From the NCBI RefSeq assembly GCF_030053115.1, contig NZ_CP125619.1:187001-251000 (forward strand): a DNA stretch of 64,000 nt. The letters are read 5' to 3'. Both the position numbers and the translations under genes were made by a program. Positions 19,175-55,062 of the stretch are shown piece by piece (position 1 is the first letter of the stretch; each line of letters opens with the position of its first letter). Source of the DNA: Pseudomonas svalbardensis. Lineage in GTDB: Bacteria > Pseudomonadota > Gammaproteobacteria > Pseudomonadales > Pseudomonadaceae. Below the pieces are notes generated by a model. It had not been told where the DNA came from. It saw only the letters and a list, made by a program, of their open reading frames with translations, and made no database searches.

Positions 19175-19199
19175 ATTCTTAAATAGTCTTTTTAAGAAT
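19175..19199. promoter_or_regulatory. Inverted repeat upstream of oscA-sbp, candidate sulfur operator
   Basis: ATTCTTAAA (19175-19183) and TTTAAGAAT (19191-19199) are perfect inverted arms with a 7-base spacer. The minus-strand reading TATTCTTAAAAAG resembles motifs near 29228, 51201 and 55044 beside other sulfur genes. CysB is the likely regulator, by inference only. Confidence 0.5.
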
Positions 19200-19280
19200 A
19201 TCCGCACGTCACTACTATTGCTCTCACGCCGCAAGCAGTCTCGCCACTGCCAGGCAACCTCTAGTTGAAGGAGCAGCACC

Positions 19281-19463
19281 ATGAGCGCATCCCTGCGTAG
19301 CGTTGACGGCCAGGACGAAGCAACCATTTTGCGTGAGATCCAGAGCGCCCTGCGCGATCTGCGTTTTGGCGCAGTGGAAATCACCGTGCACAACGCCCAG
19401 GTGGTCCAGATCGAACGCAAAGAGAAATTCCGGTTGCAGAATCCAAGCAACAAACCGAGTTAG
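19281..19463 (+). CDS. oscA: OscA-type small sulfur-starvation protein
   Basis: The 60-residue protein (DGQDEATILREIQSALRDL, then FGAVEITVHNAQVVQIERKE) matches the small OscA family encoded just before sbp in Pseudomonas and linked to organosulfur use under chromate stress. The motif IEITVHNAQVVQIE-like segment is a beta hairpin. Start ATG 19281 follows GAAGGAGCA. It is 71 bases before sbp on the same strand, so it probably heads the sulfate operon and shares the upstream inverted repeat. The biochemical role is unknown. Confidence 0.85.
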   Translation: MSASLRSVDGQDEATILREIQSALRDLRFGAVEITVHNAQVVQIERKEKFRLQNPSNKPS

Positions 19464-19534
19464 AAAACCGGCAACCCGATTCCAGCACACCATAAGAAAA
19501 AGCCAACACAATCAGAATTCCAGGAGCTTTCACC

Positions 19535-20548
19535 ATGTCGTCGATTCGTCATTTCGCTTTGGCCGCCCTGGCCAGTGCCCTTTTTGCGGGTTCCGCGGTT
19601 GCCAAGGATTACGAACTGCTCAACGTGTCGTACGACCCGACTCGCGAGCTGTATCAGGACTACAACGCCGAATTCGTCAAGTTCTGGCAGAAAGACCACG
19701 CCGGCGACAGCGTGAAAATCCAGCAGTCCCACGGTGGATCAGGCAAGCAGGGCCGGGCAGTGATCGACGGTCTGCGTGCCGACGTGGTGACCCTGGCCTT
19801 GGCCGGTGACATCGACGAAATCGCCAAACTCGGCAAGACCCTGCCGGCGGATTGGCAGAAGCGTCTGCCGGAAGCGAGCACGCCTTACACCTCGACCATC
19901 GTGTTCCTGGTGCGCAAGGGCAACCCTAAAGGCATCAAGGACTGGGGCGACCTGACCAAAAACGGCGTGGAAGTCATCACCCCGAACCCGAAAACCTCCG
20001 GCGGCGCACGCTGGAACTTCCTCGCGGCGTGGGCCTATGGCCTGAAAGCCAATGGCGGTGACGAAGCGAAAGCCAAGGAATACGTGCAAACCCTGTTCAA
20101 ACACGTTCCTGTGTTGGACACCGGTGCTCGCGGTTCGACAATCACCTTCGTCAACAACGGTCAGGGCGACGTGTTGCTGGCCTGGGAAAACGAAGCCTTC
20201 CTGGCCCTGAAAGAAGACGGTGGCGCTGACAAGTTCGACATTGTCGTGCCTTCGCTGTCGATCCTCGCCGAACCTCCGGTAGCCGTGGTCGACAAGAACG
20301 CCGAGAAAAAGGGCAACACCGAGATCGCCGAAGCGTACCTCAAGCACCTGTACAGCCCGGCCGGCCAGGAAATCGCGGCAAAAAACTTCTATCGTCCACG
20401 TGACAAGGATATTGCCGCCAAGTACGCCAAACAGTTCCCGACACTGGACCTGGTGACCATCGACAAGGACTTCGGCGGCTGGAAAACCGCTCAACCGAAA
20501 TTCTTCAACGACGGTGGCGTGTTCGACCAGATTTATCAGGCGCAATAA
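19535..20548 (+). CDS. sbp: Periplasmic sulfate-binding protein
   Basis: The 337-residue protein has a Sec signal peptide (cleavage after AVA near residue 23) and the sulfate-binding signatures [11 protein letters not shown] near the mature N-terminus, [25 protein letters not shown] and ENEAFLA. It delivers sulfate (or thiosulfate) to the CysTWA permease encoded next. AGGAGC lies before ATG 19535. A hairpin after the stop may favour higher expression of this binding protein than of the permease. Confidence 0.95.
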
Positions 20549-20567
20549 CCTGAAATAAGCCATAAAC

Positions 20568-20594
20568 GAGCCTCGAATTCCGATTCGAGGCTTT
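20568..20594 (+). terminator. Intercistronic hairpin between sbp and cysT
   Basis: GCCTCGAAT-TCCG-ATTCGAGGC is a perfect 9-bp stem followed by only TTTGCG. The weak T-run suggests a partial terminator or a 3'-end stabiliser for sbp mRNA. Confidence 0.6.
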
Positions 20595-20618
20595 GCGCGT
20601 TCTCAACCAAGGACTTTT

Positions 20619-21437
20619 ATGTCGCGTCGTATCTCCCCCGTCATACCCGGCTTCGGGCTGACGCTGGGCTACACCTTGGTGTACCTCAGCCTGATTGTGC
20701 TCATTCCACTGGCGGCGATGTTCGTGCATGCCGCCCAACTCACCTGGGATCAGTTCTGGGCGATCATCTCGGCACCACGGGTGCTGGCGGCGTTGAAGCT
20801 CAGCTTCGGCACCGCGTTCTATGCCGCGATCATCAACGGCATCATCGGCACGCTGCTGGCTTGGGTGCTGGTGCGCTACACGTTCCCGGGTCGCAAGATC
20901 ATCGATGCGATGATCGACCTGCCGTTCGCGCTGCCCACTGCCGTGGCCGGTATCGCACTCACCGCGCTGTACGCTCCTAACGGTTTGGTCGGTCAATTCG
21001 CGGCGGACCTGGGTTTCAAGATCGCGTATACCCCCCTCGGCATCACGCTCGCACTGACGTTCGTTACACTTCCATTCGTGGTACGTACAGTACAGCCAGT
21101 ACTGGCCGATATCCCACGTGAAGTTGAAGAAGCAGCCGCGTGCCTTGGTGCGAAACCCTTGCAGGTTTTCCGCCATATTCTGGTGCCCGCGCTGCTGCCA
21201 GCCTGGCTGACCGGTTTCGCGTTGGCCTTTGCCCGCGGAGTCGGCGAGTACGGTTCGGTGATTTTCATTGCCGGCAACATGCCGATGAAAACCGAGATCC
21301 TGCCGCTGCTGATCATGGTCAAACTCGACCAGTACGATTACACCGGCGCCACGTCCATTGGTGTGTTGATGCTGGTGGTTTCTTTCGTCCTGTTGCTGCT
21401 GATCAACTTGCTGCAGCGGCGCATCGAAACCCCATAA
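20619..21437 (+). CDS. cysT: Sulfate ABC transporter permease CysT (CysU)
   Basis: The 272-residue integral membrane protein has six predicted helices and the ABC permease EAA loop (VEEAAACLGAKPLQVFRHILVPALLPAW). It pairs with CysW to form the sulfate/thiosulfate channel. Start ATG 20619 after AAGGAC. cysW begins 12 bases beyond the stop. Confidence 0.93.
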   Translation: MSRRISPVIPGFGLTLGYTLVYLSLIVLIPLAAMFVHAAQLTWDQFWAIISAPRVLAALKLSFGTAFYAAIINGIIGTLLAWVLVRYTFPGRKIIDAMIDLPFALPTAVAGIALTALYAPNGLVGQFAADLGFKIAYTPLGITLALTFVTLPFVVRTVQPVLADIPREVEEAAACLGAKPLQVFRHILVPALLPAWLTGFALAFARGVGEYGSVIFIAGNMPMKTEILPLLIMVKLDQYDYTGATSIGVLMLVVSFVLLLLINLLQRRIETP

Positions 21438-21449
21438 GGAGGCGCGAAA

Positions 21450-22322
21450 ATGTCCCAATCGTCTATTAGCGCCGCTTCCTCGGCCAACGCTGCCCGCCGT
21501 GGCAGTGCCACTTCTCGGCGAATCCTGATCAGCCTTGGCTGGCTGATTTTTGCGTTGTTTCTGTTTTTACCGCTGTTCATCGTGGTGTCCCAAGGCCTGA
21601 AAAATGGCCTCGGTGCGTTCTTCACCGCGATCTTTGAGCCCGACGCTTTGTCGGCTCTGAAACTCACGGTGATTGCCGTGCTGATTTCAGTGCCGCTGAA
21701 CCTGGTGTTCGGTGTCAGCGCTGCATGGTGCGTGAGCAAGTACTCGTTCCGTGGCAAAAGTATGCTGGTCACTCTGATCGACTTGCCGTTTTCGGTGTCG
21801 CCGGTAATCGCTGGTCTGGTCTACGTGCTGATGTTCGGTGCTCAGGGCCTGTTTGGTCCGTGGTTGCAGGACCATGACATCCAGATCGTCTTCGCGTTGC
21901 CGGGCATCGTGCTGGCGACGATCTTCGTCACCGTGCCGTTCGTGGCGCGCGAGCTGATCCCGCTGATGCAGGAACAAGGCACGCAGGAAGAAGAGGCCGC
22001 GCGCTTGCTCGGGGCCAATGGCTGGCAGATGTTCTGGCACGTCACCGTTCCCAACATCAAATGGGGTCTGATCTACGGCGTGGTGCTGTGTACGGCGCGG
22101 GCCATGGGTGAGTTCGGTGCGGTGTCGGTGGTTTCCGGGCACATTCGCGGGGTGACCAACACCCTGCCGCTGCACGTCGAGATCCTCTACAACGAATACA
22201 ACCACGTGGCCGCGTTCGCCGTGGCGAGCCTGTTGCTGATCCTGGCGCTCTTCATCCTGCTGCTAAAGCAGTGGAGCGAAAACCGTATTAACCGCCTGCG
22301 CGCCAGCGCCGCGGAGGAATAA
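21450..22322 (+). CDS. cysW: Sulfate ABC transporter permease CysW
   Basis: The 290-residue protein has a polar N-terminal extension (about 25 residues), six membrane segments and the EAA loop ([28 protein letters not shown]). It is the partner of CysT. AAGGAGG overlaps the end of cysT, and cysA follows three bases after the stop, so the set is one transcript. Confidence 0.93.
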
Positions 22323-22325
22323 GTC

Positions 22326-23315
<990 letters not shown>

Positions 23316-23334
23316 AGCAAAAGCATCGTCGGAA

Positions 23335-23417
23335 CGCCGCCCGGAGCCGGCTCGCTCCCACAGGGGTTCTATGCACACCATAGATCCAATGTGGGAGCGA
23401 GCCTGCTCGCGATGACG
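23335..23417. repeat. REP-type palindromic element
   Basis: CGGCTCGCTCCCACA near 23348 and TGTGGGAGCGAGCCTGCTCG at 23391-23410 form the arms, with a degenerate left end. It lies between the converging cysA and Mpo1-like genes. Confidence 0.75.
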
Positions 23418-23419
23418 TC

Positions 23420-23944
23420 TTACGCCGCAGCGTTTTTCTGACGAAGACGCACCACCCCCACCCGCGCCTCGATCTGCTCTTTCAGGTCATGCCGCAACCC
23501 CAGCAAAAACGCCAGCTCAACCACCACAAACAACGGCCCGACAATCAACCCCGTCACATCATCGACAAACGCCGGTTTGCGTCCTTCGTAGTGATGACCG
23601 ACAAACTGAATCGCCCAACCCACCACAAACATCCCGATGCCGCTCGCCAGCCAGACCAGCGTGCTTTGCTGCGCGAGCACATGACCCAGCCAAACACAAA
23701 GACCCAGCAACACGGTCATCAGCACGCCCAGCCGAAACTCCAGTCGCAGATAAAACCACGCCGAAGCCAGCGCCAAAAGCACTGCCGGTGACACCCAAAC
23801 CCCGGCCAGCGGCCACTCGGGCCGTGACAGCAGCACCGCAACGGCGACAACGATCAGCGGAATACCGATAAAGTGGCTGGCAATATTGCGCGGGTCACGG
23901 TGGTAGGCAGCGTATTGACTGAGATGGTCGACGAGGCTTTTCAT
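23420..23944 (-). CDS. Mpo1-like (DUF962) membrane protein
   Basis: The 174-residue protein has the family N-terminus (MKSLVDHLSQYAAYHRDPRN, then IASHFIGIPL) with conserved His residues, and about four membrane segments; the FVGHHYEGRKPAF block is the second His-rich motif. It belongs to the YGL010w/Mpo1 family; yeast Mpo1 is an iron dioxygenase of 2-hydroxy fatty acid alpha-oxidation, but a bacterial role is not known. ATG 23944 is preceded by an excellent AGGAGGAATA site. Confidence 0.85.
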   Translation of the reverse strand: MKSLVDHLSQYAAYHRDPRNIASHFIGIPLIVVAVAVLLSRPEWPLAGVWVSPAVLLALASAWFYLRLEFRLGVLMTVLLGLCVWLGHVLAQQSTLVWLASGIGMFVVGWAIQFVGHHYEGRKPAFVDDVTGLIVGPLFVVVELAFLLGLRHDLKEQIEARVGVVRLRQKNAAA

Positions 23945-24028
23945 TGTTATTCCTCCTGTTGGGTGATGGATCATGCCCCGGGTCCACATTTCGCTCTGTC
24001 AGGCAGGCGACAATCTCTAGGAGTTTTC

Positions 24029-24715
24029 ATGGATATGCAGGTCTGGCGTCCACGCCTGATGAGCGGCCAGTGGTTCAGCCATTTACCTGTTTCCTTACAG
24101 GATAGTCTGCTGTCTGCCGCCCGCGTGCGGCGGTTGTCGCCGGGCCAGCGGCTGTTCAAGCGCGGCGATCCACCGTGCGGGCTGTACGCGGTGCTCGAAG
24201 GTTCGGTGCGGATCGGCGCAGTGAGCGAGCAGGGCAAGGAGGCGCTGTTGAGCCTGGTGGAGTCGCCCCACTGGTTCGGCGAAATCTGTCTGTTTGATGG
24301 TCAGCCGCGCACCCACGATGCGTACGGTGCCGATCAATGCGTCCTGCTGCACATCCCGCAAACGGTGTTGTTAAAGCTGCTTGACGATCAACCGCTGCAT
24401 TGGCGGCAACTGGCGCTGCTGATGAGCCACAAACTGCGCCTGACCTTCATCAACCTTGAACAGCTGAGCCTGATGCCAGCCCCGGCGCGCCTGGCCCATC
24501 GCCTGCTGATGATTGCCGAGGGCTATGGCGAAATCGATCCACCGCGCCGGGTCCTGCAACTGCCCCAGAAGCAACTGGCGTCGATGCTGTCGCTGTCGCG
24601 CCAGACCACCAACCAGATTCTCAAGGACTTGCAGGGGCGGGGGATTGTGAATCTCAAGTACGGCGAGATCGAGATTCTGGATGCGCAACGATTGCGGATG
24701 TTGGCGATTATCTAA
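24029..24715 (+). CDS. Crp/Fnr family transcriptional regulator
   Basis: The 228-residue protein has a cyclic-nucleotide-binding type beta barrel (LSPGQRLFKRGDPPCGLYAVLEG, GEICLFDGQPRTHDAYG), a long dimer helix and a winged helix-turn-helix (LPQKQLASMLSLSRQTTNQILKDLQGRGIVNL). No Fnr-type N-terminal cysteine cluster is present, so it is not an oxygen sensor of that kind. The effector is unknown. ATG 24029 follows TAGGAG. It is divergent from the Mpo1-like gene and may control it. Confidence 0.85.
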   Translation: MDMQVWRPRLMSGQWFSHLPVSLQDSLLSAARVRRLSPGQRLFKRGDPPCGLYAVLEGSVRIGAVSEQGKEALLSLVESPHWFGEICLFDGQPRTHDAYGADQCVLLHIPQTVLLKLLDDQPLHWRQLALLMSHKLRLTFINLEQLSLMPAPARLAHRLLMIAEGYGEIDPPRRVLQLPQKQLASMLSLSRQTTNQILKDLQGRGIVNLKYGEIEILDAQRLRMLAII

Positions 24716-24785
24716 AACCCGGTGTTAGTGGTGGGCTTTGGACGCGAAGGCGCCTAGCCTGTGATGACGACAATCGAGGTGTGCC

Positions 24786-25151
24786 ATGCGTGTGCTGTTA
24801 GTGGAAGACGAACCTGAGACCGCCAAAGTCCTGGCCAAGGGCCTGAGCGAGGCAAGTTATTCGGTGGATGTGGCGGTCAACGGAATGGACGGCCGGCGCT
24901 TTATCGAGTCCGGCAAATACGAGCTGATCATCCTCGACGTGATGCTGCCCGGGCTCAATGGATGGCAGTTGCTGCAGCAGATCCGCAAACTCGGCGAGAC
25001 GCCGGTGCTGTTCCTGACCACCAAGGACGGCATCGAGGATCGCCTGCGCGATCTCGAGTTGCATGAGGATGATTACCTGCTCAAGCCGTTTGCCGTGAGT
25101 GAACTGGTGAAGCGAGTGCGCAAGTTGTTGCGGCGGGATCAGGGGCGCTGA
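24786..25151 (+). CDS. Receiver-only response regulator (OmpR-like, no output domain)
   Basis: The 121-residue product is a complete receiver domain of the CopR/CusR branch (LLVEDEPETAKVLAKGL, phospho-acceptor in LIILDVMLPGLNGWQLL near residue 52, FLTTKDG, YLLKPFAVSELVKRVRKLLRR). It stops at the interdomain linker, where relatives continue into a winged-helix DNA-binding domain. No wHTH coding is visible before hipB, and no histidine kinase is adjacent. It could be a truncated gene or a functional single-domain regulator. Confidence 0.8.
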   Translation: MRVLLVEDEPETAKVLAKGLSEASYSVDVAVNGMDGRRFIESGKYELIILDVMLPGLNGWQLLQQIRKLGETPVLFLTTKDGIEDRLRDLELHEDDYLLKPFAVSELVKRVRKLLRRDQGR

Positions 25152-25194
25152 GACCGGGTCCGATCAATCTATGAGCTAGACTTCGACTTAGTTA

Positions 25195-25251
25195 TGCATT
25201 AAATACAATGCAAATAGGTTATTTCAGTAAATATGCACTGTATATGATGCA
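25195..25251. promoter_or_regulatory. Paired palindromic sites upstream of hipB
   Basis: TGCAT-N8-ATGCA (25195-25212) and a second site with TGCA-N10-TGCA spacing (about 25234-25251) lie in the 100 bases before the hipB ATG. Repeated dyads here are what HipB autorepression would need. Assignment is inferred from position. Confidence 0.5.
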
Positions 25252-25261
25252 GGTGGGTGGG

Positions 25262-25510
25262 ATGGAATACCTCGGCGAATTGATCAGGTTGCTGCGCAAA
25301 GAGCGAAAGATGTCTCAACAAGACCTGGCAAAGCAGTACGGCATGAGCCGTTCCACGATTTCGGGTATCGAGAACAACACCATTTCCGAAATTGGCCTGC
25401 GCAAGGTTGAAGCGATCCTCAATGGCTTCGGGTACGAACTGACGGCCGTGCCGCGGCGGTCGACGCGTCCTACACTGGAGACCCTCAAAAAGGTCAACTT
25501 CCATGGGTGA
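25262..25510 (+). CDS. hipB: HipB-type antitoxin, XRE family
   Basis: The product is 82 residues from ATG 25262 (MEYLGELIRL), which has GGTGGG upstream; ATG 25244 is possible. It carries a Cro/CI helix-turn-helix (KMSQQDLAKQYGMSRSTISGIENN) and a short tail (TLETLKKVNF). It overlaps the next gene by eight bases (25503-25510), typical of a toxin-antitoxin pair. It should bind and neutralise the HipA kinase and repress the operon at the dyads just upstream. Confidence 0.85.
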   Translation: MEYLGELIRLLRKERKMSQQDLAKQYGMSRSTISGIENNTISEIGLRKVEAILNGFGYELTAVPRRSTRPTLETLKKVNFHG

Positions 25511-27740: not shown

Positions 27741-27840
27741 GCTGATTGGCGCTTCCGGTCAACAGGTTGGCGTTCACGGCTACCGCTTTGCGAGGGTTCA
27801 CAAGGCAGGATGCGAACATCAATAACCAGAGGATGGAAGC

Positions 27841-28914: not shown

Positions 28915-29042
28915 TCGATGTTCTCGGAAACTCAAAACGGCAAAGGCGCCCGTCATCAATCTGACCCAAAAGGGCGATAGGTTATGACGCAAGCAGGGTT
29001 GCTTGGTGGTTACTGTATCGCTGATTGATATATGCGTTTTGG

Positions 29043-29077
29043 ATCTAATAAAGTAATTAAATATTCCTTTATTAGAT
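29043..29077. repeat. Perfect 11-bp AT-rich inverted repeat
   Basis: ATCTAATAAAG (29043-29053) and CTTTATTAGAT (29067-29077) are exact reverse complements with a 13-base spacer. It is too AT-poor in GC to be a terminator and may be a regulator site. The surrounding gap 28915-29299 also holds the terminator at 29141 and the motif at 29228. Confidence 0.45.
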
Positions 29078-29140
29078 AACCGTTTCGGCCAATCATCGCA
29101 TCCAGTGATGTTGATTAGCGCTAGCAGATTTTGAGTTTCC

Positions 29141-29178
29141 GGGGCCGTCTCCTTGGCAGGGTGCGGTCCCTTTTTTTG
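29141..29178 (+). terminator. Terminator after the desaturase gene
   Basis: GGGGCCG pairs with CGGTCCC (one G-T pair) around an 16-base loop and is followed by TTTTTTT. Confidence 0.7.
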
Positions 29179-29227
29179 TCTATTCAAAACTGCTTCATAT
29201 TCTATGTAGGTCTTAATAAATAGCTTC

Positions 29228-29248
29228 TTATTCCTTAACGAATATAAC
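29228..29248. promoter_or_regulatory. TTATTC-type motif, candidate sulfur operator
   Basis: TTATTCCTTAACGAATATAA lies 52 bases before the hydrolase ATG. It is nearly identical to TTATTCTTTAATCGAATA at 55044 and resembles sites near 19175 and 51201. Inference: binding site of a sulfur regulator such as CysB. Confidence 0.5.
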
Positions 29249-29299
29249 TCTCCTCCCTATACTTGCTCAGGAACAGACACGCAGCAGGAGAGTTCCCCC

Positions 29300-29881
29300 A
29301 TGCGCAACGAATCAATTCGCTACCTGATTGTGCCGGGCTGGCAAGGATCGCCAGAAGATCATTGGCAAAGCCATTGGCAGAACAGCCTGCCGAACAGCGC
29401 GCGGGTGGAGCAGGCCGACTGGCTGACGCCGCGTCGTGAAGACTGGGTCGCGGCACTGGCTGAGGCGATTGCCGCCGACAGCACGCCGGTGATCCTGATC
29501 GCCCATAGCCTGGGTTGCATCACTGTCGCGCATTGGGCGGCCACCGCGCCCGTGCAGTTTTTGCGTCAGGTTCGCGGCGCCTTGCTGGTCGCCCCGGCGG
29601 ACGTCGAGCGTGCGGCCTGCGCACCGGCCCTGCGCAATTTCGCACCGATTCCGACCCACCTGCTGCCGTTCCCGAGTCAGGTTGTCAGCTCCGACAACGA
29701 CAGCGCCGTGAGCACTTCGCGTGCATTGGAACTGGCACGTCACTGGGGCGCCGAGGCGGGGATATTGTCGGGTGCCGGACACATCAACGTGAAGTCTGGT
29801 CACCAACGCTGGGAGCAGGGTTTTGCTTATCTCTATCGCCTGCAAAACCGAATGGAACACCACGCCCTGCGCCGCGCTTGA
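29300..29881 (+). CDS. Small alpha/beta hydrolase (RBBP9/YdeN family)
   Basis: The 193-residue protein matches the RBBP9/YdeN serine hydrolases: YLIVPGWQGSPEDHWQSHW at the N-terminus, nucleophile elbow IAHSLGC (Ser near residue 73), the SDNDSAVS acid motif and the catalytic His in GAGHINVKSG. It is soluble; the substrate is unknown. AGGAGAG precedes ATG 29300. It is 73 bases before the broken sigma-54 regulator and in the sulfur-uptake block. Confidence 0.85.
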   Translation: MRNESIRYLIVPGWQGSPEDHWQSHWQNSLPNSARVEQADWLTPRREDWVAALAEAIAADSTPVILIAHSLGCITVAHWAATAPVQFLRQVRGALLVAPADVERAACAPALRNFAPIPTHLLPFPSQVVSSDNDSAVSTSRALELARHWGAEAGILSGAGHINVKSGHQRWEQGFAYLYRLQNRMEHHALRRA

Positions 29882-29954: not shown

Positions 29955-30884
29955 ATGAGTTTTGAAGCCTTCGGTCAGCCGCTGCTGACCTTCCCCGACG
30001 CAGAAAAAAGTCCCCTGAGCATTCGCGCCAAGGCGCTGGTGTTTGTCGATCCGCGTTCCCGTCAGCTTCGCCAGGAGCTGGAGCTATTGGCACCGCGCTC
30101 GATCTCGGTGTTGATCCGTGGCGAAACCGGCACCGGCAAGGAGTTGCTCGCGCGGCACATCCATCGCGCGAGTGATCGCGGCGGGTTGTTCGTGTCGGTC
30201 AATTGTGGCGCGATCAGTCCGACTTACGCCGATGCGGAATTGTTCGGTTATGCCGCTGGCAGTTACAGCGGATCGGCCAGCAGTCGCGCTGGCTGGTTCG
30301 GTTCTGCCAACGGCGGGACGCTTTATCTGGATGAAATCGGCGACCTGCCGCTGCCGATCCAGATCAAATTGCTCGCGGCGCTGGAAAACCACGAAGTCAC
30401 GCGTGTCGGCGCTCACTAACCAAGCCCGGTGGACGTGCGTCTGGTCGCCGCTACCAGCATCGACCTGGCCCAAGCGGTGGCCGCCGGAAAATTCCATGAG
30501 CGGCTCTACCACTACCTCAGCGAAGGCCAGCTCGAACTGCCGGCCTTGCGTGAACGGGTGGGCGATATTCTGTCGCTGTCTGAGTATTTCCTCGGCATCT
30601 ATAGCCAGCGTCTGGACCTGCCGGTGCCGCTGATCAGCGAAGCCGCGCAGCATTTGTTAGAGCAACACAGTTGGCCGGGCAACACTCGGGAGCTGGAGAA
30701 CGTCATTCACTTTGCATTGTTGGTCAGCACCGGCGATGAGATTTTGCCGGAGCATTTGAATCTGCCCGAGGCGCCCACCTCACTGTTACAGATCGAGCGG
30801 CAACTGAAGCAAATTCTCGGCAGCGGTTCCACCGCAGAGAAAGAAGCTTTGAAACAACTCCTCAAAAACACCGCGCTTCTGTAG
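29955..30884 (+). pseudogene. Sigma-54-interacting regulator (SfnR-like) with an in-frame stop
   Basis: The frame encodes an AAA+ sigma-54 activator core: Walker A GETGTGKE (56-63), a region equivalent to GAFTGA that reads GSYSGS (102-107), Walker B GTLYLDEIGD (121-130), then VDVRLVAATSIDL and the WPGNTRELENVI sensor region. A TAA at 30417-30419 (codon 155) splits it, while both sides stay in one frame. Relatives have RVGxxQP here, so a single CAA to TAA change explains it. The final stop (TAG 30882-30884) lies in a REP, and no C-terminal Fis-type helix-turn-helix is encoded. It resembles sulfur-source regulators of the SfnR kind. The first half alone would lack the sensor-2 region. Confidence 0.8.
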
Positions 30885-30961: not shown

Positions 30962-30995
30962 GTAACCCGCGAACTAGAGCTGTATGAACAAAATG

Positions 30996-31032
30996 GAATA
31001 TGAAAGTGAATAAAAGATATTGTTCGGGAATA
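30996..31032. promoter_or_regulatory. Three GAATA half-sites upstream of metQ-like gene
   Basis: GAATA occurs at 30996-31000, 31008-31012 and 31028-31032, all in one orientation, in an AT-rich stretch about 110-140 bases before the start at 31139. They resemble half of the TTATTC motif found at other sulfur operons. Weak evidence. Confidence 0.3.
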
Positions 31033-31138
31033 AAAAATCCCGGTATTGTCCGCGTCACGCCAGCGATAGCACTTCACTGGCACTCGTACTAAACAAGCCG
31101 TCGTCGATCACGACCGCGATTTTCGATAAGGACACTGC

Positions 31139-31921
31139 ATGAAAAAGGTTCTGTTGTTCACCGCATTGGCGGCTGCCCTGACCGCGGGCCTGGCCCAGGC
31201 TGGCGAGAAACTGGTGGTTGCGGCGACCCCGGTTCCACACGCCGAGATTCTGGAACTGATCAAACCCACCCTCGCCAAAGAAGGCGTGGACCTGGAAATC
31301 AAAGTCTTCACCGACTACGTTCAGCCGAACGTACAGGTCGATCAGAAGCGTCTGGATGCCAACTACTTCCAGACCCTGCCGTACCTGAAAAGCTTCAACG
31401 AAGGCAAAGGCACCAACCTGGTGACCGTGATCGGCGTACACGTCGAACCGTTCGGCGGCTACTCGAAGAAAGTCAAAACCCTGGCTGAGCTGAAAGACGG
31501 CGCAACCATCGCTATCCCCAACGAAGGCAGCAACAGCGGCCGCGCCCTGATCCTGCTGCAGAAGGCTGGCCTGATCGAGTTGAAAGACCCGAAAAACGCC
31601 TTGGCCACCCCGAAAGACATCGCCAAGAACCCGCACAACTTCAAGTTCAAGGAACTGGAATCGGCCATGCTGCCGCGTGTTCTGGACCAGGTCGACCTGG
31701 ACATGATCAACACCAACTACGCACTGGAAGCAGGTCTGAACCCGGCTAAAGACGCGCTGGTGATCGAAGGTGCAGATTCGCCTTACGTGAACTTCCTGGT
31801 GGCTCGTCCGGACAACAAGGACAGCGTTGCCATCCAGAAACTGGCCAAGGCCTTGACCAGTCCTGAAGTGAAAGCATTCATCGCCAAGAAGTACAGCGGC
31901 GCGGTATTGCCGGCGTTCTGA
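31139..31921 (+). CDS. MetQ/NlpA family substrate-binding protein
   Basis: The 260-residue protein has a Sec signal peptide ending AQA-GE near residue 21, with no lipobox cysteine, so it is a free periplasmic protein. Mature motifs are those of MetQ: VAATPVPHAEILE, DYVQPN, LDANYFQTLPYL, IAIPNEGSNSGRALILLQKAGLI, and YVNFLVAR. It should bind methionine or an oxidised/sulfur-containing relative. No metNI genes are adjacent; a polar amino-acid transporter with its own binding protein follows. A second MetQ lies at 46229-47038 with its transporter. Confidence 0.88.
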   Translation: MKKVLLFTALAAALTAGLAQAGEKLVVAATPVPHAEILELIKPTLAKEGVDLEIKVFTDYVQPNVQVDQKRLDANYFQTLPYLKSFNEGKGTNLVTVIGVHVEPFGGYSKKVKTLAELKDGATIAIPNEGSNSGRALILLQKAGLIELKDPKNALATPKDIAKNPHNFKFKELESAMLPRVLDQVDLDMINTNYALEAGLNPAKDALVIEGADSPYVNFLVARPDNKDSVAIQKLAKALTSPEVKAFIAKKYSGAVLPAF

Positions 31922-32109: not shown

Positions 32110-32389
32110 TTTCTCTTCCTTGTGATGGTTCGGCCGGGGAGTCTGGCCAAAAGTTGTGCGTCCTTGGAGGGGTATTCTGAAAAAAAGATCCTTCCTACAA
32201 CGCAAAGAAAAATAGTCGTCTTCCGTTACCACAGCAAATTCGGTAGATAGTTTTTTGCGTGATATCAATATGCTTTAACGGTATTTAAATTCTTCTTTTT
32301 ATACCTTTAAAGTCAGTGCCTGCCGGATGGTTATCCACCACTTATGGACTGCACCACCGTCGCTTACCCCGCGGCGTCCAGGATGTTCA

Positions 32390-35457: not shown

Positions 35458-35784
<327 letters not shown>

Positions 35785-35792: not shown

Positions 35793-36668
35793 TTGGTTCG
35801 GCAGCTGCAACAGAAGGCTTATTCGGTGGCGTATGTGTGTCGTTTGTTGGGGGTTAGTCGATCCGGCTTCTACGAGGCCAACAAGCGCGCTGAGGCTCCT
35901 GCATCGATCTGCCCCGTTGCTCTGCAACTCAAGGCGTCGTTTGCTGAAAGTGGCGGCTGCTATGGCAGTCGCCCATTGCGTAAAGCGTTACGTGCAAAGG
36001 GTATGGAAGTAGGCATTTACAAGATTCGCCGCATGATGCGCGTCAACGGCCTGCGTTCGGCCTGGAAGCGTAAATTTGTGCACACCACCGACAGCAAACA
36101 TGACCTGCCGATTGCTGAAAATGTATTGAACCGCCAATTTGAACCCGAGGCGGCGAACAAGGCCTGGGTAGCAGACATTACCTACATCCGAACCCGCAGT
36201 GGCTGGTTGTATCTGGCTGTGGTGCTGGACTTGTTCTCACGCAAGGTAGTGGGCTGGTCAATGGCGCCGAACATGCCCGCTGAACTGGTGTGCAGTGCAA
36301 TGCAGCTGGCGGTTGCTCAACGTCAACCGCCACCCGGCTTGATCGCCCACTCGGATCGCGGCAGCCAGTACGCGAGTGCGAGCTACAGAGCGCTGCTGGC
36401 AAGAAGTGACATGCAGCAAAGCATGAGCCGTAAAGGTAACTGCTGGGATAACGCAGTGATGGAGCGCTTCTTCCTGAGCTTGAAAATGGAGCGGGTATGG
36501 CGACGTGATTACGCCAACCATGGCGAGGCGATACGCGACATCACTGAGTACATCGTTGGGTTTTACAACAACGAACGGCTGCACTCGAAACTGGGATATC
36601 TGCCACCGACAGTTTATGAACGGGCGATGGCATCAAAATCACCTATCGAGGTGTCCGGAATTAGTTGA
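35793..36668 (+). CDS. IS3-family transposase OrfB (DDE integrase)
   Basis: The 291-residue frame, opening with TTG 35793, lies in the -1 frame relative to OrfA and is normally made as an OrfAB fusion. It has the HTH_21 domain (YGSRPLRKALRAKGMEVG), and the retroviral-type DDE core: Asp in WVADITYIR, Asp in IAHSDRGSQYAS, Glu in DNAVMERFFLSLK. All three acidic residues are present. Confidence 0.93.
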   Translation: MVRQLQQKAYSVAYVCRLLGVSRSGFYEANKRAEAPASICPVALQLKASFAESGGCYGSRPLRKALRAKGMEVGIYKIRRMMRVNGLRSAWKRKFVHTTDSKHDLPIAENVLNRQFEPEAANKAWVADITYIRTRSGWLYLAVVLDLFSRKVVGWSMAPNMPAELVCSAMQLAVAQRQPPPGLIAHSDRGSQYASASYRALLARSDMQQSMSRKGNCWDNAVMERFFLSLKMERVWRRDYANHGEAIRDITEYIVGFYNNERLHSKLGYLPPTVYERAMASKSPIEVSGIS

Positions 36669-43705: not shown

Positions 43706-43719
43706 TGACACACACAATG

Positions 43720-46226: not shown

Positions 46227-46228
46227 AT

Positions 46229-47038: not shown

Positions 47039-47084
47039 GGTGGGGTTTCCAGTCAGTGCATGAATGTGTGGTGTTTGGGCGGGC

Positions 47085-47188
47085 CTCTTCGCGGGCAAGT
47101 CGGATCGCCGCACCGCTCGCTCCTACGGGGGAACTGTGATCGCACGGGCGATGTAAAACCTGTAGGAGCGAGGCTTGCCCGCGAAGCT
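47085..47188. repeat. REP-like palindromic element (GTAGGAGCGA type)
   Basis: CTTCGCGGGCAAGTCGGATC with CGCTCGCTCCTAC on the left and GTAGGAGCGAGGCTTGCCCG on the right form an imperfect palindrome between metQ and the monooxygenase gene. It could also stabilise or separate the transcripts. Confidence 0.7.
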
Positions 47189-47189
47189 T

Positions 47190-48548: not shown

Positions 48549-49741
48549 CAGATGGTCCCCCGCAGTGGCGGGTTTTCATCGTTGAGGTAGTAATTGCCGA
48601 CCGCGTGATACTTCCAGCGCACAGGGTCGTGCAGCGTGTGTACCCGAGCGTTGCGCCAGTGACGGTCCAGACCCTGTTCGATCAGGGTTGCCTGGCTGCC
48701 GGCCAGTTCAAACAGCGTGCTGCCAGCGGCGAGGGAAATCTCGGTGCTGATGGCGCGGGCTTCGGCGACGGCAATCGACGCGGCGGCGACGGTCTCGGCG
48801 TTGGTCTTGGCCTGAGCCTTGTCGAGGAATTCGCCGGAGCGTTCCAGCAAGGCTTCGGTGGCGTGCAGACGAATGCTCAAGTGGCCGAAGCTCTTGATGG
48901 TCAGTGGGTCTTCGGTGGCTTTGTCGTTGCCGGAATCGATCCACGGCCGGGTCTTGGTGCGTACGAAATGCAGCGCATCTTCATAGGCGGCGCGGGCGAT
49001 GCCGGTGTCGATAGCAGCATGAAGAATCTGCGCCAGCGGGCCGACGGTGGTCGGGCGCTCGAACGCGCTCTGAAACGGGATCACGTCTTCGGCGGCGACG
49101 TAGACGTCTTCAAACACCACCGAACCGCTGCCGGTGGTGCGCTGGCCGAAGCCGCTCCAGTCGTCGATCACCGTCAGACCCTTGGCGTTACGAGGGACGA
49201 AAGCGAGTTGCTGAACACCGTTTTCGTCCACGACCGACGTCGGAATGCGCTGAGCATAAATAGCGCCCGTGGCGTAAAACTTGCGGCCGTTGATGCGATA
49301 GCCGTCACCGCCGCGGGTCAGGCTGGTGACGCGGTCATGGGCGGTTTTGGTCCCCAGTTCCGCGAGGGCATTGCCGAAGCGTTGGCCGGCCAGCACTTCT
49401 GCGTACAGGCGTTTTTTCTGCTCTTCGCTGCCATTCACCCGCAACACTTCGAGCGCGTAGAAATGGTTCTGCGGAATCTGGCCGAGGGAACCGTCAGCCT
49501 GGGCGATCAGCGCGATCACCTTGGCCAAGGTGACGTTGGAAACCCCGGCGCCGCCATATTCTTTTGGCACGCTGATGCCCCAAAGACCCGAGCGGGAAAA
49601 CACTTCCAGTTCCGGGTGTGGCAAACGGCGTTCGCGGTCGCGCAGGGCGCTGTCGCGTTTGAAATCTTCGGCCAGGTCACTGGCGACGATCAGGGCTTGC
49701 TCATCGCTGGTTATGACCGCGACGTGGTGAGAAAGAGTCAT
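48548..49741 (-). CDS. SfnB-family sulfur acquisition oxidoreductase 1
   Basis: The 397-residue acyl-CoA-dehydrogenase-fold flavin monooxygenase has FSRSGLWGISVPKEYGGAGVSN, ADGSLGQIPQNHFYALE, GRKFYATGA and the C-terminal LDRHWRNARVHTLHDPVRWK typical of SfnB/DszC. SfnB is tied to dimethyl sulfone use in P. putida. ATG 49741 (MTLSHHV) is chosen; the frame is open to 50179 over the neighbouring gene and that extension is rejected. The stop and next start overlap at 48548. Confidence 0.9.
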   Translation of the reverse strand: MTLSHHVAVITSDEQALIVASDLAEDFKRDSALRDRERRLPHPELEVFSRSGLWGISVPKEYGGAGVSNVTLAKVIALIAQADGSLGQIPQNHFYALEVLRVNGSEEQKKRLYAEVLAGQRFGNALAELGTKTAHDRVTSLTRGGDGYRINGRKFYATGAIYAQRIPTSVVDENGVQQLAFVPRNAKGLTVIDDWSGFGQRTTGSGSVVFEDVYVAAEDVIPFQSAFERPTTVGPLAQILHAAIDTGIARAAYEDALHFVRTKTRPWIDSGNDKATEDPLTIKSFGHLSIRLHATEALLERSGEFLDKAQAKTNAETVAAASIAVAEARAISTEISLAAGSTLFELAGSQATLIEQGLDRHWRNARVHTLHDPVRWKYHAVGNYYLNDENPPLRGTI

Positions 49742-49779
49742 GTGTTTCTCCAGAGATCTGGTCAAAAGTGTTCTGGTCG

Positions 49780-51021
49780 TTAAATCCAGGAATGCCGAGC
49801 GGGCAAAGTGCCGTTCAGGTGATAGGTGCCGACTGCGTGATATTTCCAGCGCACCGGATCGTGCAGCGTGTGCACGCGGGCGTTGCGCCAATGGCGGTCG
49901 AGGTTGAATTCGGCGAGGGTCGCGCGGCTGCCGGCCAGTTCGAAAAGCTTTTCGCTGGCCAGCAGCGAGATCTCGGTGGTCAGCACTTTGGCTTCGGCCA
50001 CGGCAATCGACGCGCGCGCGGCGGACTCGGCGGTGAGGGGCGCGGCGTTGACTTGATCGAGCACTTGCCCGGCTTTGCGCAGCAGCGCTTCGGCGGCGTG
50101 CAGTTCGATTTTCAGTTTGCCGATGTCGGCGATCACATAGAGGTCGTCGCTGGCCCGTTCGACCTTGGCGTCGATCCACGGCCGTGCACGGGTTTTCACG
50201 AAATCGATGGCGTCGTCGATGGCGCCCCGGGCGATGCCGGCGTCAATGGCTGCTTGAATCAGCTGCGACACGGCACCCTGAATGTTCGGGCTGTCATTGA
50301 TCTTCCAGTTATCCACCACCAGCTCGGCGTCGACCTGCACGTTGTTGAGCAAAATGGTGCCGCTGGCGGTGGTGCGTTGGCCGAAGCCCGACCAGTCATC
50401 CACGATGCGCAGGCCCGGTGTACCGCGGCGGACGAAGGCCAGAACCTGCTTGCCATCGTCGTTCAGCGCCTTGACGGCGACCCAGTGGGCGAACAGGGCG
50501 CCGGTGGAATAGAACTTCTGCCCGTTGAGGACGAAGCCGTCGCCGTTGGCGGTGATTCGCGCCTTGAGTTCAAGGGTGTTTTTGGTACCGCGTTCAGGTC
50601 CCGCGTTACCGATTCGCCAGCCGTCAAGCACGCTTTTGAACAGCTGTTTTTTCTGCGATTCAGTGGCGCTGCCGAGCACCAGGTTGAGAATGCCGAACTG
50701 GTTTTGCGGGATCTGTCCCAATGCCGGGTCGGCAGCGGAAATGATCGCGAATACGTCGGCAACCGTGACGAACGAAACCTGCGGGCCACCGTACTCACGC
50801 GGGATGGCAATGCTGCCCAGGCCGCTGCGGGTGAACTGTTCGATTTCCGACCATGGCAGCTTGCGCTGCTGGTCGCGTTTGGCTGCTTGCAGGCGAGCGA
50901 CTTGCGCCAGCTCATGGGCGGCCTTGATGGCTTGTGCGTCGTTGCGCAAGACCTGCGCGGGCAACAACAGGGGGGCGATATCCAGATCACTCTGGACGAT
51001 TGCATCTGCCAGACTGGACAT
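49780..51021 (-). CDS. SfnB-family sulfur acquisition oxidoreductase 2
   Basis: The 413-residue paralogue has the same blocks (QFTRSGLGSIAIPREYGGPQVSF, ADPALGQIPQNQFGIL, GQKFYSTGALFAHW, LDRHWRNARVHTLHDPVRWKYH) but a different N-terminus. The two SfnB genes are adjacent and in the same orientation, so this is a tandem duplication with divergence, possibly giving different substrate ranges. Upstream lies an AT-rich region with a TTATTCC motif (51201-51213). Confidence 0.9.
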   Translation of the reverse strand: MSSLADAIVQSDLDIAPLLLPAQVLRNDAQAIKAAHELAQVARLQAAKRDQQRKLPWSEIEQFTRSGLGSIAIPREYGGPQVSFVTVADVFAIISAADPALGQIPQNQFGILNLVLGSATESQKKQLFKSVLDGWRIGNAGPERGTKNTLELKARITANGDGFVLNGQKFYSTGALFAHWVAVKALNDDGKQVLAFVRRGTPGLRIVDDWSGFGQRTTASGTILLNNVQVDAELVVDNWKINDSPNIQGAVSQLIQAAIDAGIARGAIDDAIDFVKTRARPWIDAKVERASDDLYVIADIGKLKIELHAAEALLRKAGQVLDQVNAAPLTAESAARASIAVAEAKVLTTEISLLASEKLFELAGSRATLAEFNLDRHWRNARVHTLHDPVRWKYHAVGTYHLNGTLPARHSWI

Positions 51022-51200
51022 CAGTGCCGCTCCTTGGCTGCACGCAATGCCCTGGCGATCTGCACTGGGGTGATTGTGTTCCGGACCATACCTACCTCAC
51101 ATCTCATGGAAACGTCGCGAGGGTTGCGACGAACGAAAACAAGAATGTCCGGTGGTCCGGTACATATACCCTAAGCGTGTATAAAAAATTAATAAACTAA

Positions 51201-51213
51201 CTTTTAGGAATAA
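51201..51213. promoter_or_regulatory. TTATTC-type motif upstream of sfnB2
   Basis: On the minus strand TTATTCCTAAAAG lies about 180 bases before the sfnB2 ATG and is followed by TTAGTTTATT. It resembles the motifs at 29228, 55044 and 19175. The gap 51022-51377 also contains the palindromic repeat copy 2. Confidence 0.45.
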
Positions 51214-51230
51214 GCATAGAAGGGGTCTCA

Positions 51231-51379
51231 CAGATCCTTCTAGCAGCTGGCAAAGCCTGCGTTCGGCTGCGTAGCAGTCGTGAAATCAGGCGTCGCGGTC
51301 ATTCAGGTTAATCGCGGACTCAGGATTTACGACTGCTGCGCAGCCGAACGCAGGCTTCGCCAGCTGCTACAGGGATCTC
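51231..51379. repeat. 135-150-bp palindromic repeat, copy 2
   Basis: Inverted ends around CAGCTGGCAAAGCCTGCGTT and AACGCAGGCTTCGCCAGCTG, framed by AGATCC and GGATCT. It matches copy 1 at 38062-38196 over most of its length. It reaches the stop codon of the next minus-strand gene. Confidence 0.8.
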
Positions 51380-52142
51380 AGTGTTTGCGGGGTTCGGCGG
51401 CCATGAGTATCTCCTTTGGCCGGGCCTTCAAATAGGGATTGGCGCAACCGATCTTCAGCCTGCGCGGTGGTGCCCAGCGGGAGTTGTTGCCCACCCGGTC
51501 GAGGATGCAGTAAGTCACTTCCAGCCGCAGGTCTTCGCCGGCTTCGAGAATGATCGCCGGCGGCACCCAGACCTGGATCGGCTGGCCGACATCGCCGGCC
51601 TTGAGTCGTGGCAGATCCATGCGCACATCGCCCCAGCGCAGGGTGATTTCGTCGTCGGCGGCCATGTTCAGGTAAGGCTCGATGGTCAATGGAACGCCGC
51701 GCTTGATCTGGTTCGGATTGACTCCCTGACGGCGAATGGTCTCGGGGATATTCACGGGCTCCAGACTCTGGTTTTCATCGCCGCACAGCGCAGACGGTTG
51801 GCCGCCGGGGCAGTCGAGTTTGATCTGCACCCGTCTGGCGGCGGACAGGGTTGGCCCTTGCCCGATCTGCATGATCCGGTAGTGAACGCGCGAGGTGCCA
51901 TTGGCGATGAAGCTCTCGGGCACACGCAGTTGCACCGGTTGGCCGACATCGTTGGCCGTCAGCACTCTGGAGGCCACGTAGCAGTTGTCCCAGAACAATT
52001 CGATCAGGTCGCCTTCGTCCATGCCGGAGTAGGGCGCCACATCGATCAGCAGGCGCGCCGCCGAGGTGATGTTGATGCAGGTCTTGTGAGATTGCGCCAG
52101 GGTCGGGGCCGCAAGCTCGGGTTTGTTCGAAGTGCTTGTCAT
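51378..52142 (-). CDS. Hypothetical protein with two repeated beta domains
   Basis: The 254-residue protein has no signal peptide or membrane segment. Two similar domains occur: about residues 22-112 (GDLIELFWDN..., LTANDVGQPVQLRVP, YRIMQ, AARRVQI) and about 146-236 (DEITLRWGDVRM, LKAGDVGQPIQVWVP, EVTYCILD, PPRRLKI). The shared pattern is an internal duplication of an immunoglobulin-like beta sandwich. Family and role are not recognised. The AT-rich 500-base region to the right probably contains its promoter. Confidence 0.7.
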   Translation of the reverse strand: MTSTSNKPELAAPTLAQSHKTCINITSAARLLIDVAPYSGMDEGDLIELFWDNCYVASRVLTANDVGQPVQLRVPESFIANGTSRVHYRIMQIGQGPTLSAARRVQIKLDCPGGQPSALCGDENQSLEPVNIPETIRRQGVNPNQIKRGVPLTIEPYLNMAADDEITLRWGDVRMDLPRLKAGDVGQPIQVWVPPAIILEAGEDLRLEVTYCILDRVGNNSRWAPPRRLKIGCANPYLKARPKEILMAAEPRKH

Positions 52143-52644
52143 GGGGGTTCTCCTTGAAGCCTTGCAGCGAAAGTCCGTTTCTGAAAGTTTGAAAGGCGTG
52201 AATTACCGAGCAACAAAGTTATTCGCTATTTGTGAGATTAAATAATGAATGAGTTTGAGGTTTAACGCCTGTTGGAGACTAGATAAGAGTGCGCTTGAAT
52301 AGGTGTCAATAGAGTTTGCTAGTTAAGTGTTGGATCTAGTGTTATTCAGAAAAATCCTACGTGTTGAAGTTAATAAGCTGCACCGCTCTGTCGACTTTTA
52401 CCTTGTTTTATGGGCTTTCAGCGCTCTGCTGACGGGGAAGGCCGGTTCGGTGAGGGCGCTGGGTTTGGCGGATTTTAGGCGAGGTTATTCTGTTGCAGGA
52501 CATATATATGTACCGCACGCAGCAATAAAAAATTATCTATTGTTCGGGTGGATGAATAAGCGAAGAGAATATATCGAGAGGTTTTGTTAGTAGGGGTGGT
52601 TGTCACTTCCGTCCATGGAAATTGACAAGTAGTGAAGCGATATT
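52143..52644. other. AT-rich 500-base gap without convincing gene
   Basis: Base composition is clearly lower in GC than around it. One frame (52327-52590, GTG start, 87 residues) has no ribosome site or recognisable domain and is not accepted. The gap likely holds the promoter for the hypothetical protein gene and the 3' end of the cystine operon. Confidence 0.5.
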
Positions 52645-53400
52645 TCAGTGGTGAGCGTTATTCAGGAACTTGCTGAGAAACTGCTTAGTCCGCTCTTCTT
52701 TCGGGTTGGCAAACAGCGCCTTGGCTTCGCCTTGTTCGACGATCACACCCTTGTCGAAAAACACCACGCGGTTCGCCACGTCCCGGGCAAAGCCCATTTC
52801 GTGGGTGACGATGACCATGGTGCGTCGCTCTTCGGCGAGGCTGCGGATGGTCGCCAGTACTTCACCCACCAGCTCCGGGTCGAGGGCTGAGGTAGGTTCG
52901 TCGAACAGAATCACTTCCGGCTCCATCGCCAGCGCGCGGGCAATCGCCACACGCTGTTGCTGACCACCGGAAAGGCGTCGCGGGTAAGCGTCTTCCTTGC
53001 CCGCCAGGCCAACCCTGGCCAAGAGCTTTTTACCCAAGGCAACGGCTTCGGCATGTGGGATTTTTTTCACCACGATCGGGCCTTCGATGACGTTTTCCAG
53101 GGCGGTGCGATGGGGGAACAGGTTGAAGCTCTGGAACACGAAACCTACGTGCTGGCGTAACCGTCGTACCAGGCTCTGCTGCTGGTTCAACGGGCGGCTG
53201 CCATCGATCTCGATGTCACCGACCTTGATCCGGCCGCTGGTGGGTTCTTCCAGGAAATTCAGGCAACGCAGGAACGTTGTTTTACCCGAGCCGCTAGGCC
53301 CGATGATCGCCACCACCTCGCCTTCCTTCACTTGCAGATCGATGCCGTTGAGCACCACTTGACCCTTGAACTGCTTTGTCAGTTTTTCCACGACAATCAT
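52645..53400 (-). CDS. tcyN: Cystine-type ABC transporter ATP-binding protein
   Basis: The 251-residue ATPase shows Walker [11 protein letters not shown]-loop [15 protein letters not shown], signature LSGGQQQR, Walker [15 protein letters not shown] and H-loop [10 protein letters not shown]. It is the last gene of a three-gene minus-strand cassette with permease and binding protein, next to D-cysteine desulfhydrase, hence the cystine assignment. Confidence 0.87.
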
Positions 53401-53404
53401 TGGG

Positions 53405-54070
53405 TCAGGACTCCAGGTCGTGCCGATTGACCCGTGCTTCCAACTGGTTCTGCAGGTGCGAAAGCACCGTGGCCAGAATCCAGTAGATCAGCGCGGCGGC
53501 AAGGTACATGGTGAAAATTTCAAAGGTACGGGCGGTAATCAGCTGCGCCTGACGGAACAGTTCCGGCACCTGAATAGTGGCTGCCAGCGCGGTGTCCTTC
53601 ACAAGCGAAATGAAGCTGTTGCCCAGCGGTGGCAGGGCCGTGCGCATCGCTTGCGGCAGGATGGCCCGACGCAGGGTCTGCGCACGGGTCATGCCGATAC
53701 TCGCGGCGGCTTCCCACTGACCGCGCTCAATGGAGCTGATCGCGGCGCGGAGGATTTCGCAGGCATAGGCCGCCATGTTAAGCGAGAAGCCGATCAGGGC
53801 CGCCGGCAGCGGATCAAGTTCGATGCCCAATTGCGGCAAGCCGTAATAGATCACGAACAGTTGCACCAGCAACGGTGTGCCGCGAAAGAACGACACGTAG
53901 ATGCGGGCGATCCAGCTCACCAGTTTGAAGCGCGACAGTCGCATCAATGCCAGGCCGAAGCCCATCACCAGGCCGAAGAACATCCCGCCCAAGCTCAAGA
54001 TTACCGTGTAATACGCGCCCTTCAGCAGGAAGGGCGCGGAATCCAGCGCGAGTTGGAAAGCTTCTTCCAT
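53405..54070 (-). CDS. tcyL: Cystine-type ABC transporter permease
   Basis: The 221-residue permease has [22 protein letters not shown], typical of the amino-acid permease family, and the EAA loop ([26 protein letters not shown]). It overlaps the binding-protein gene by one base and lies four bases before tcyN. Confidence 0.87.
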
Positions 54071-54870
54071 TATTTAGTGACGTCAGCGCTGAAGTATTTT
54101 TCCGAAAGCTTTTTCAGCGTACCGTCGGCACGCAGCTTGTCGATGGCCTTGTTCACTGCTGCCAGCAACTCAGGCTCGCCTTTGCGCAGGGCGATGCCAG
54201 CTTCCTGGCGGGAGAACGCTTCGCCGGCGGCGGCAGTGTCCTTGGCCTTCTTGGCGTATTCCAGCGCGGCGAGGCGGTCGATCAGAATGGCGTCGATGCG
54301 GCCGACGCGCAGATCCTGGAACTTGGTCGGATCATCGTCATAGGTCTTGATGATGGCTTTTGGCTGATTGTCCTTGAGCCACTGCTCGTAGTTGGTGCCC
54401 AGGCCTACACCGACTTTTTTGCCGGCCAGATCGGCGGCAGTCTTGATGTTCAGCTCCGCAGCCTTCTTGGTTAGCACCAGCGCCTGAATCCCGGAAACGG
54501 TGTACGGCTCGGAGAAGTCATACTTCTTCTTGCGCTCTTCGGAGATGGTTACCTGGTTGATCACGGCGTCCAGACGTTTGGATTCCAGGGCTGCGAGGAT
54601 GCCGTCCCATTTGGTTGGTTGCAGTTTGACCTTCACGCCCAGCTCTTTGGCCAGGGCTTCGGAGAACTCGACTTCGAAGCCGGCCAGCTTGCCGTCGGCG
54701 TCGACGAAACTGAACGGTGGATAAGTGCCTTCCAGACCGACGTTGATAACGCCAGCGTCTTTGATTTTTTGCAGCTGCTCACCGGCAACTGCTTGCCCCA
54801 ACAGACCGGCGCTCAGCGCCAGGCCCAACGAACCAACCAGCAGGTTTCGACGTAGTGCAGAAAAATTCAT
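54070..54870 (-). CDS. tcyJ: Cystine-binding periplasmic protein
   Basis: The 266-residue protein has a Sec signal peptide (cleavage after AVA near residue 29) and an SBP_bac_3 domain (KDAGVINVGLEGTYPPFSFV, GFEVEFSEALAKELG, NQVTISEERKKKYDFSEPYT). This matches FliY/TcyJ-type cystine binders, which in Pseudomonas also take up D-cysteine and related compounds. The operon is followed on its upstream side by D-cysteine desulfhydrase. Confidence 0.87.
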   Translation of the reverse strand: MNFSALRRNLLVGSLGLALSAGLLGQAVAGEQLQKIKDAGVINVGLEGTYPPFSFVDADGKLAGFEVEFSEALAKELGVKVKLQPTKWDGILAALESKRLDAVINQVTISEERKKKYDFSEPYTVSGIQALVLTKKAAELNIKTAADLAGKKVGVGLGTNYEQWLKDNQPKAIIKTYDDDPTKFQDLRVGRIDAILIDRLAALEYAKKAKDTAAAGEAFSRQEAGIALRKGEPELLAAVNKAIDKLRADGTLKKLSEKYFSADVTK

Positions 54871-55043
54871 GACAAGCCCCTGTGTTTTCTTATGGAAGAC
54901 GCTTTAGGAATGTTGGCAAATTCGGGAATTGAACGACTGCGATATCCTGCCCTAAAGCATCGTATGCGTCTCGCTGCAAATTCGCCTGCGGCGCGACTAT
55001 ATGACGAGGCTTTTAGATAGGAAAATAATAAATATTAAGTTTG

Positions 55044-55062
55044 TTATTCTTTAATCGAATAT
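55044..55062. promoter_or_regulatory. TTATTC-type motif upstream of tcyJ
   Basis: TTATTCTTTAATCGAATA lies about 175 bases before the tcyJ ATG. It is the closest match to the motif at 29228. The region 54871-55106 also contains a TGATCGTTCCCACGC repeat (55064-55098). Confidence 0.5.

Follow-up and report, generated by a model that had tools for sequence, protein, structure and literature searches.

A 64,000-nucleotide stretch of the Pseudomonas svalbardensis genome (contig NZ_CP125619.1, positions 187,001 to 251,000; hereafter the window, to whose coordinates feature positions refer) contains similar TTATTC-like words ahead of several sulfur operons. This raises the question of whether these words are sites of one common regulator and, if so, of which one. 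The words are real, conserved, sulfur-linked control sites. They are predicted, with a probability of about 0.85, to be half-sites (wTATTCyTwAA) bound by CysB, which would activate the sulfur operons when sulfur is scarce. That the sites are more than chance follows from two observations: the words are kept ahead of orthologous genes, and independent sulfur leads are told apart from promoters of random stretches by a matrix derived from four promoters.

The sequences TTATTCCTTAACGAATATAA, TTATTCTTTAATCGAATA, CTTTTAGGAATAA, and ATTCTTAAATAGTCTTTTTAAGAAT occur once each in the window. All of them were found where the original prediction, made from the DNA letters, had placed them, except that the ends 29248 and 55062 given there were one base too high (correctly 29247 and 55061). 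The perfect inverted repeat ATTCTTAAATAGTCTTTTTAAGAAT at 19175-19199 indeed has 9-base arms, and three GAATA words do precede the metQ-like gene. The genes behind the four sites, described there as hydrolase, cystine, sfnB, and oscA-sbp genes, were assigned as serine hydrolase, cystine ABC transporter, SfnB, OscA, and sulfate-binding protein. The sites and the associated promoter elements are as follows.

19173..19201, plus strand: oscA-sbp site, ACATTCTTAAAT...AAGAATAT, an inverted repeat of two half-sites, 29 bases
19213..19218, plus strand: putative -10 box TACTAT of oscA, 40 bases past ACATTC, conserved in the alignment
29197..29208, plus strand: distal half-site ATATTC of the hydrolase promoter, 31 bases ahead of the proximal site
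29228..29247, plus strand: proximal site of the hydrolase promoter, TTATTCCTTAACGAATATAA
29258..29263, plus strand: putative -10 box TATACT of the hydrolase promoter; TATACT lies upstream in 79 of 80 named hydrolase loci
30995..31033, minus strand: three GAATA half-sites ahead of the metQ-like gene, with spacing of 12 and 20 bases
32268..32310, plus strand: two half-sites 31 bases apart ahead of an amino-acid ABC transporter operon, a predicted extra target seen in the window sequence only
51202..51213, minus strand: sfnB site TTATTCCTAAAA; CTTTTAGGAATAA spans 51201-51213
55044..55062, minus strand: tcyA site ATATTCGATTAAAGAATAA, a 19-base inverted repeat; TTATTCTTTAATCGAATA spans 55044-55061

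A set of 119 Pseudomonas genomes was searched for OscA, TcyA, the hydrolase, and SfnB, and the upstream regions of the 30 best loci for each were aligned. As anticipated in the original prediction, the upstream words are retained in related strains. Half-sites stand at the expected position in 30 of 30 hydrolase loci, 30 of 30 oscA loci (left arm; the right arm is outside this count), and 28 of 30 sfnB loci, and the GAATA triplet of the metQ-like gene is found with identical spacing in 27 of 30. Among the 80 named hydrolase loci, whose genomes partly overlap those of the 30-locus sets, the proximal word has the form TTATTCCTTAACGAATAT in 64 and a looser form in 68, while the distal word 31 bases upstream, forming a direct repeat, is present in 64. 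Nine of the 12 named loci lacking the loose form retain TTATTCCTTAACG and differ in the right half only. At a greater depth, 17 loci were selected for proximity of oscA and the hydrolase gene, an 18th such locus being left out. Upstream words of oscA are present in all 17, and in 13 of these selected loci the two genes diverge from a shared region of 231-264 bases with arrays of words.

Training of the 12-position half-site matrix used only the four window promoters and the orthologous ones; two of the seven planned half-site groups were empty, and five groups were used. Sulfur loci were pre-chosen by protein family and compared with six random 20-kb stretches, giving 259 promoters in total, a sample of the genome. 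The 27 family matches yielded 21 entries (six weak or fragmentary matches were left out) and 17 lead promoters, with sfnB belonging to the training set and 16 leads tested; TauD-family matches with no obvious link to sulfur were retained. The 16 tested leads, two of which share one intergenic region and one of which comes from an operon cut at the window end, outscore the 67 random-stretch promoters (Mann-Whitney p = 2.5e-5), and scores above 15.5 bits were obtained for 8 of 16 versus 3 of 67. The high-scoring leads are msuE, ssuE, an sfnB paralog, an ssuA-like divergent pair, a taurine-binding protein gene, a tauA-like gene, and an NMT1-family gene; the three high-scoring random-stretch promoters belong to a levoglucosan dehydrogenase-like gene (rank 6) and a TetR/permease pair. 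The enrichment at sulfur genes proposed in the original prediction is therefore observed in this sample; the notion of a local regulon proved too narrow, as the site recurs at distant sulfur loci. TATTC/GAATA words number 22 in 17 sulfur promoters against a dinucleotide-shuffle mean of 8.4 (0 of 1000 shuffles reach 22) and 14 in 13 non-training sulfur promoters (6 of 1000 reach 14), in promoter sets that, like those used for inverted repeats, mix pre-chosen leads with promoters added for a high score, so that the shuffle count is not independent.

High-scoring sites are also found at an lsfA-like peroxiredoxin gene (rank 2) and two adjoining genes of OprD-family porins, near ssuE and taurine genes (L158:8406-12333). 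It is possible that the two porins are sulfur-starvation porins.

CysB, already named as the probable regulator in the original prediction, is the best candidate binder because similar words occur at CysB promoters of E. coli, because the genome encodes one close CysB, and because SfnR is called CysB-regulated in Pseudomonas putida DS1 by a paper title (Endoh 2003). The single close CysB is 64% identical to the E. coli protein, the next LysR-type protein being at 29%, and its DNA-binding stretch LYTSQPGISKQ is identical to that of E. coli. The promoter of cysB itself contains TTATTCTTCAA adjoining a -10-like TATAGT, words that would suit autoregulation. The words resemble the CysB sites of E. 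coli and Salmonella cys promoters: in E. coli, TTATTCC stands ahead of cysK, cysP, cysD, and tauA, and GGAATAA ahead of tcyP and cbl. Among 99 hand-listed E. coli promoters, the core TTATTCC, selected after the promoters had been inspected, is present in 6 of 10 genes that we largely take to be controlled by CysB or Cbl versus 5 of 89 others (Fisher p = 7e-5); the five include iap, whose upstream region is also that of cysD, as well as fliC and fliD, which have one region in common. By the Pseudomonas matrix, too, the same 10 genes come out higher among 117 promoters (p = 0.008), with tauA 1st, cysD 2nd, and cysJ 10th. For cysJIH, cysK, cysP, and cysB the link to CysB in E. coli is given in the available passages of PMC11329422, and for tauABCD by a paper title.

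The proposed mechanism is as follows. Several words, inverted or in the same direction approximately 31-32 bases apart, would overlap the -35 region or lie immediately upstream of it, where a CysB tetramer would bind two dimeric sites. Under sulfur scarcity, CysB would recruit RNA polymerase to the oscA-sbp-cys, hydrolase-sfnR, metQ-like, sfnB, and cystine-transport operons, and likewise would drive the sulfonate, taurine, and lsfA-like peroxiredoxin genes elsewhere in the genome. Binding and activation by CysB, the promoter positions, and the inducer are all predicted elements of this scheme.

Several results weigh against the assignment to CysB. At the tcyA promoter the repeat is retained in only 18 of 30 loci, and the words are absent from one (L218) of two deep tcyA loci, the other having two. 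Half of the pre-chosen leads (8 of 16) score under 15.5 bits, among them a luciferase-like monooxygenase gene (genome position 3217646, rank 160) and TauD-family genes at 5814609 (rank 99) and 1605804 (rank 100). In E. coli, besides the late choice of the core and a gene list largely taken as given, cysP, cbl, and cysK rank only 53rd-60th and tcyJ 111th of 117 by the matrix, only 2 of the 10 promoters do better than shuffled versions of themselves at 0.05, and many unrelated promoters reach high scores. The 18-20-base inverted repeat is found in 4 of 16 sulfur promoters and 1 of 12 non-training ones (0 of 67 in random stretches), and it was rejected as the general form of the site. The offset profile from half-site to -10 box gave no preferred distance. 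Finally, the exact 11-mer WTATTCYTWAA is not enriched genome-wide (11 matches, 4 of them in the window, versus 9 for the reversed control), and none of the seven matches outside the window adjoins a recognised sulfur gene, as judged for six by a Pfam scan of the neighbours. These neighbours are aspartoacylase/AstE-like, ABC permease, LamB porin, HxlR regulator, GroEL/GroES, DEAD helicase, and esterase genes, and two without a match; the seventh match (4859707) lies in a conserved promoter block that precedes an extracytoplasmic function (ECF) sigma gene in relatives.

A looser search with the IUPAC pattern TTATTCNTTNNNNGAATA and two mismatches gave 72 genome matches versus 38 for the control, but nine of them are copies of an unrelated dispersed 18-mer, and the pattern was discarded. 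This repeat, TTGTTCGTTCGTCAAATA, is present in nine identical chromosomal copies (e.g., at 645359 and 6011400).

Could the words have another origin? A different LysR-type or sulfur regulator of similar specificity is an unlikely binder. Such proteins are plentiful, 62 places in the genome matching E. coli CysB at E <= 0.001, and AT-rich words of the TTATTC type could suit other regulators; however, the genome has no second close copy of CysB or Cbl, and the same core is enriched at the E. coli CysB/Cbl promoters. Generic AT-rich promoter DNA, such as UP elements or -35 regions that resemble each other by eye, is a very improbable source, given that the half-site spacing is kept while the flanks diverge, that random-stretch promoters score low, and that AT-preserving dinucleotide shuffles fail to reach the word count, albeit for a set partly chosen by score. 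In its favor are the higher AT content of the sulfur promoters (53% versus 47% in random stretches) and the parity of the exact 11-mer with its reversed control.

The presence of an sfnR-like gene in the block, together with paper titles according to which SfnR controls some sfn genes, would speak for the SfnR/sigma-54 system as the owner of the sites. We consider this scarcely credible, as the motif also stands ahead of oscA-sbp and the cystine transport genes, with conserved -10-like boxes downstream, and sfnR is interrupted here, although no scan aimed at sigma-54 promoters was made.

The arrangement of half-sites can be described further. The 119 genomes contain 407 exact inverted pairs of the form TTATTC-N6..8-GAATA (reversed control, 110) and 500 same-direction pairs with a spacing of 31-32 bases (reversed control, 191); these totals are not counts of independent events, as orthologous promoters recur, near-palindromes are counted on both strands, and some matches look coding. 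Inverted pairs of 18-20 bases are found at the oscA, hydrolase, tcyA, and lsfA-like promoters. They agree with the structural argument, in the available passages of PMC11329422, that each 19-base enteric element consists of two half-sites. According to the same source, activation sites in E. coli lie 50-60 bases ahead of the start; in our alignments, half-sites lie 30-61 bases ahead of conserved -10-like boxes, as judged by eye. Several promoters show a 40-base spacing by eye, but as no offset stood out we do not propose it as a rule. A more specific model can be offered tentatively, and we regard it as somewhat doubtful: the 19-base unit once given to one subunit would be an inverted half-site pair (wTATTC-N6..8-GAATAw), and the tetramer would join two such units 31-32 bases, or three helical turns, apart. 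In this model the regulon would include the lsfA-like peroxiredoxin, the OprD porins, and, in relatives, the ECF sigma factor, while CACCGGAYCACCGGACATTC just past the -10 box of sfnB and of that sigma gene would be a further layer of control.

As in E. coli and Salmonella, where the sites lie upstream of the start region according to the accessible passages, the DNA-binding stretch of CysB is conserved. PMC11329422 calls the enteric CysB consensus very weak, whereas the Pseudomonas half-sites are clearer, some of them forming 18-20-base inverted or 31-32-base direct repeats; also unlike the enteric cys systems, the predicted targets here include hydrolase-sfnR and sfnB. As for sfnR of P. putida DS1, judged by the title of the 2003 paper, the sfnR-like gene stands behind a motif-bearing promoter, but here the serine hydrolase gene comes first and sfnR is interrupted. 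In P. aeruginosa, sulfur acquisition genes also fall into CysB-linked iModulons (PMC9023270, in part); these groups are based on expression, and the site sequence is not among the passages available. No printed Pseudomonas CysB site was found in the portions of open-access text covered, texts containing both "CysB" and "TTATTC" lying outside this negative result.

The window belongs to a genome of 6.36 Mb in a single contig. Among the best 80 loci, from which very near records were possibly left out, the hydrolase is 99% identical to a protein of Pseudomonas sp. GM41(2012) and 97% identical to proteins of P. frederiksbergensis AS1, P. mandelii 29, and P. jessenii. The 36-kb region includes oscA-sbp-cysT, the serine hydrolase gene with the sfnR-like gene of a sigma-54 activator, a MetQ-like lipoprotein gene with an amino-acid ABC transporter, two SfnB-family genes with a monooxygenase gene, met-type ABC genes, and a cystine ABC transporter. 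The main genes are listed below.

19281..23315, plus strand: oscA, sbp, cysT, and two more genes assigned from position only, a probable sulfate transporter operon
29300..29881, plus strand: serine hydrolase gene (PF06821)
29955..30884, plus strand: sfnR-like sigma-54 activator gene, two open reading frames split by an in-frame stop
31139..31921, plus strand: MetQ/NlpA-like lipoprotein gene
49780..51021, minus strand: sfnB
52645..54870, minus strand: cystine ABC transporter operon (tcyA, permease, ATPase)

The hydrolase and sfnR-like genes probably form one operon, as suggested by the short gap between them. The sfnR-like gene, interrupted here by one in-frame stop, forms one continuous frame in the 80 named loci and in the remaining 29 of the hydrolase set. 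An IS3-family transposase gene lies within the sulfur island (35793-36668), and a gabT RNA motif (RF01738) was detected by Rfam at 11890-11951.

The sfnB promoter has further conserved features, one of which is listed as follows.

51143..51161, minus strand: second conserved element ACCGGACCACCGGACATTC, downstream of the putative -10 box of sfnB

The sequence ACCGGAYCACCGGACATTC is found after this putative -10 box and after that of the ECF sigma gene, which in relatives is preceded by CysB-like words (L300, L301, L303, L306). The CysB-like promoter of the sigma gene is retained in our genome (L306, G000:C1:4858700-4860700), with no sigma gene in the 1 kb read downstream. A 22-codon frame (51021-51089, minus strand) overlaps the sfnB start (TGATG), and its nucleotides are near-invariant in the aligned relatives. 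Its start region TGGTCCGG is complementary to the upstream CCGGACCA, so that sfnB may be preceded by a leader peptide or an RNA switch; Rfam at gathering scores gave no match for this leader region.

In summary, these observations fall within known biology, to which they add a sharper definition of the site and further predicted members. The half-site argues for shared sulfur control of the 36-kb island, and a clear half-site with conserved spacing makes the recognition of DNA by CysB testable and predicts new sulfur-starvation genes.

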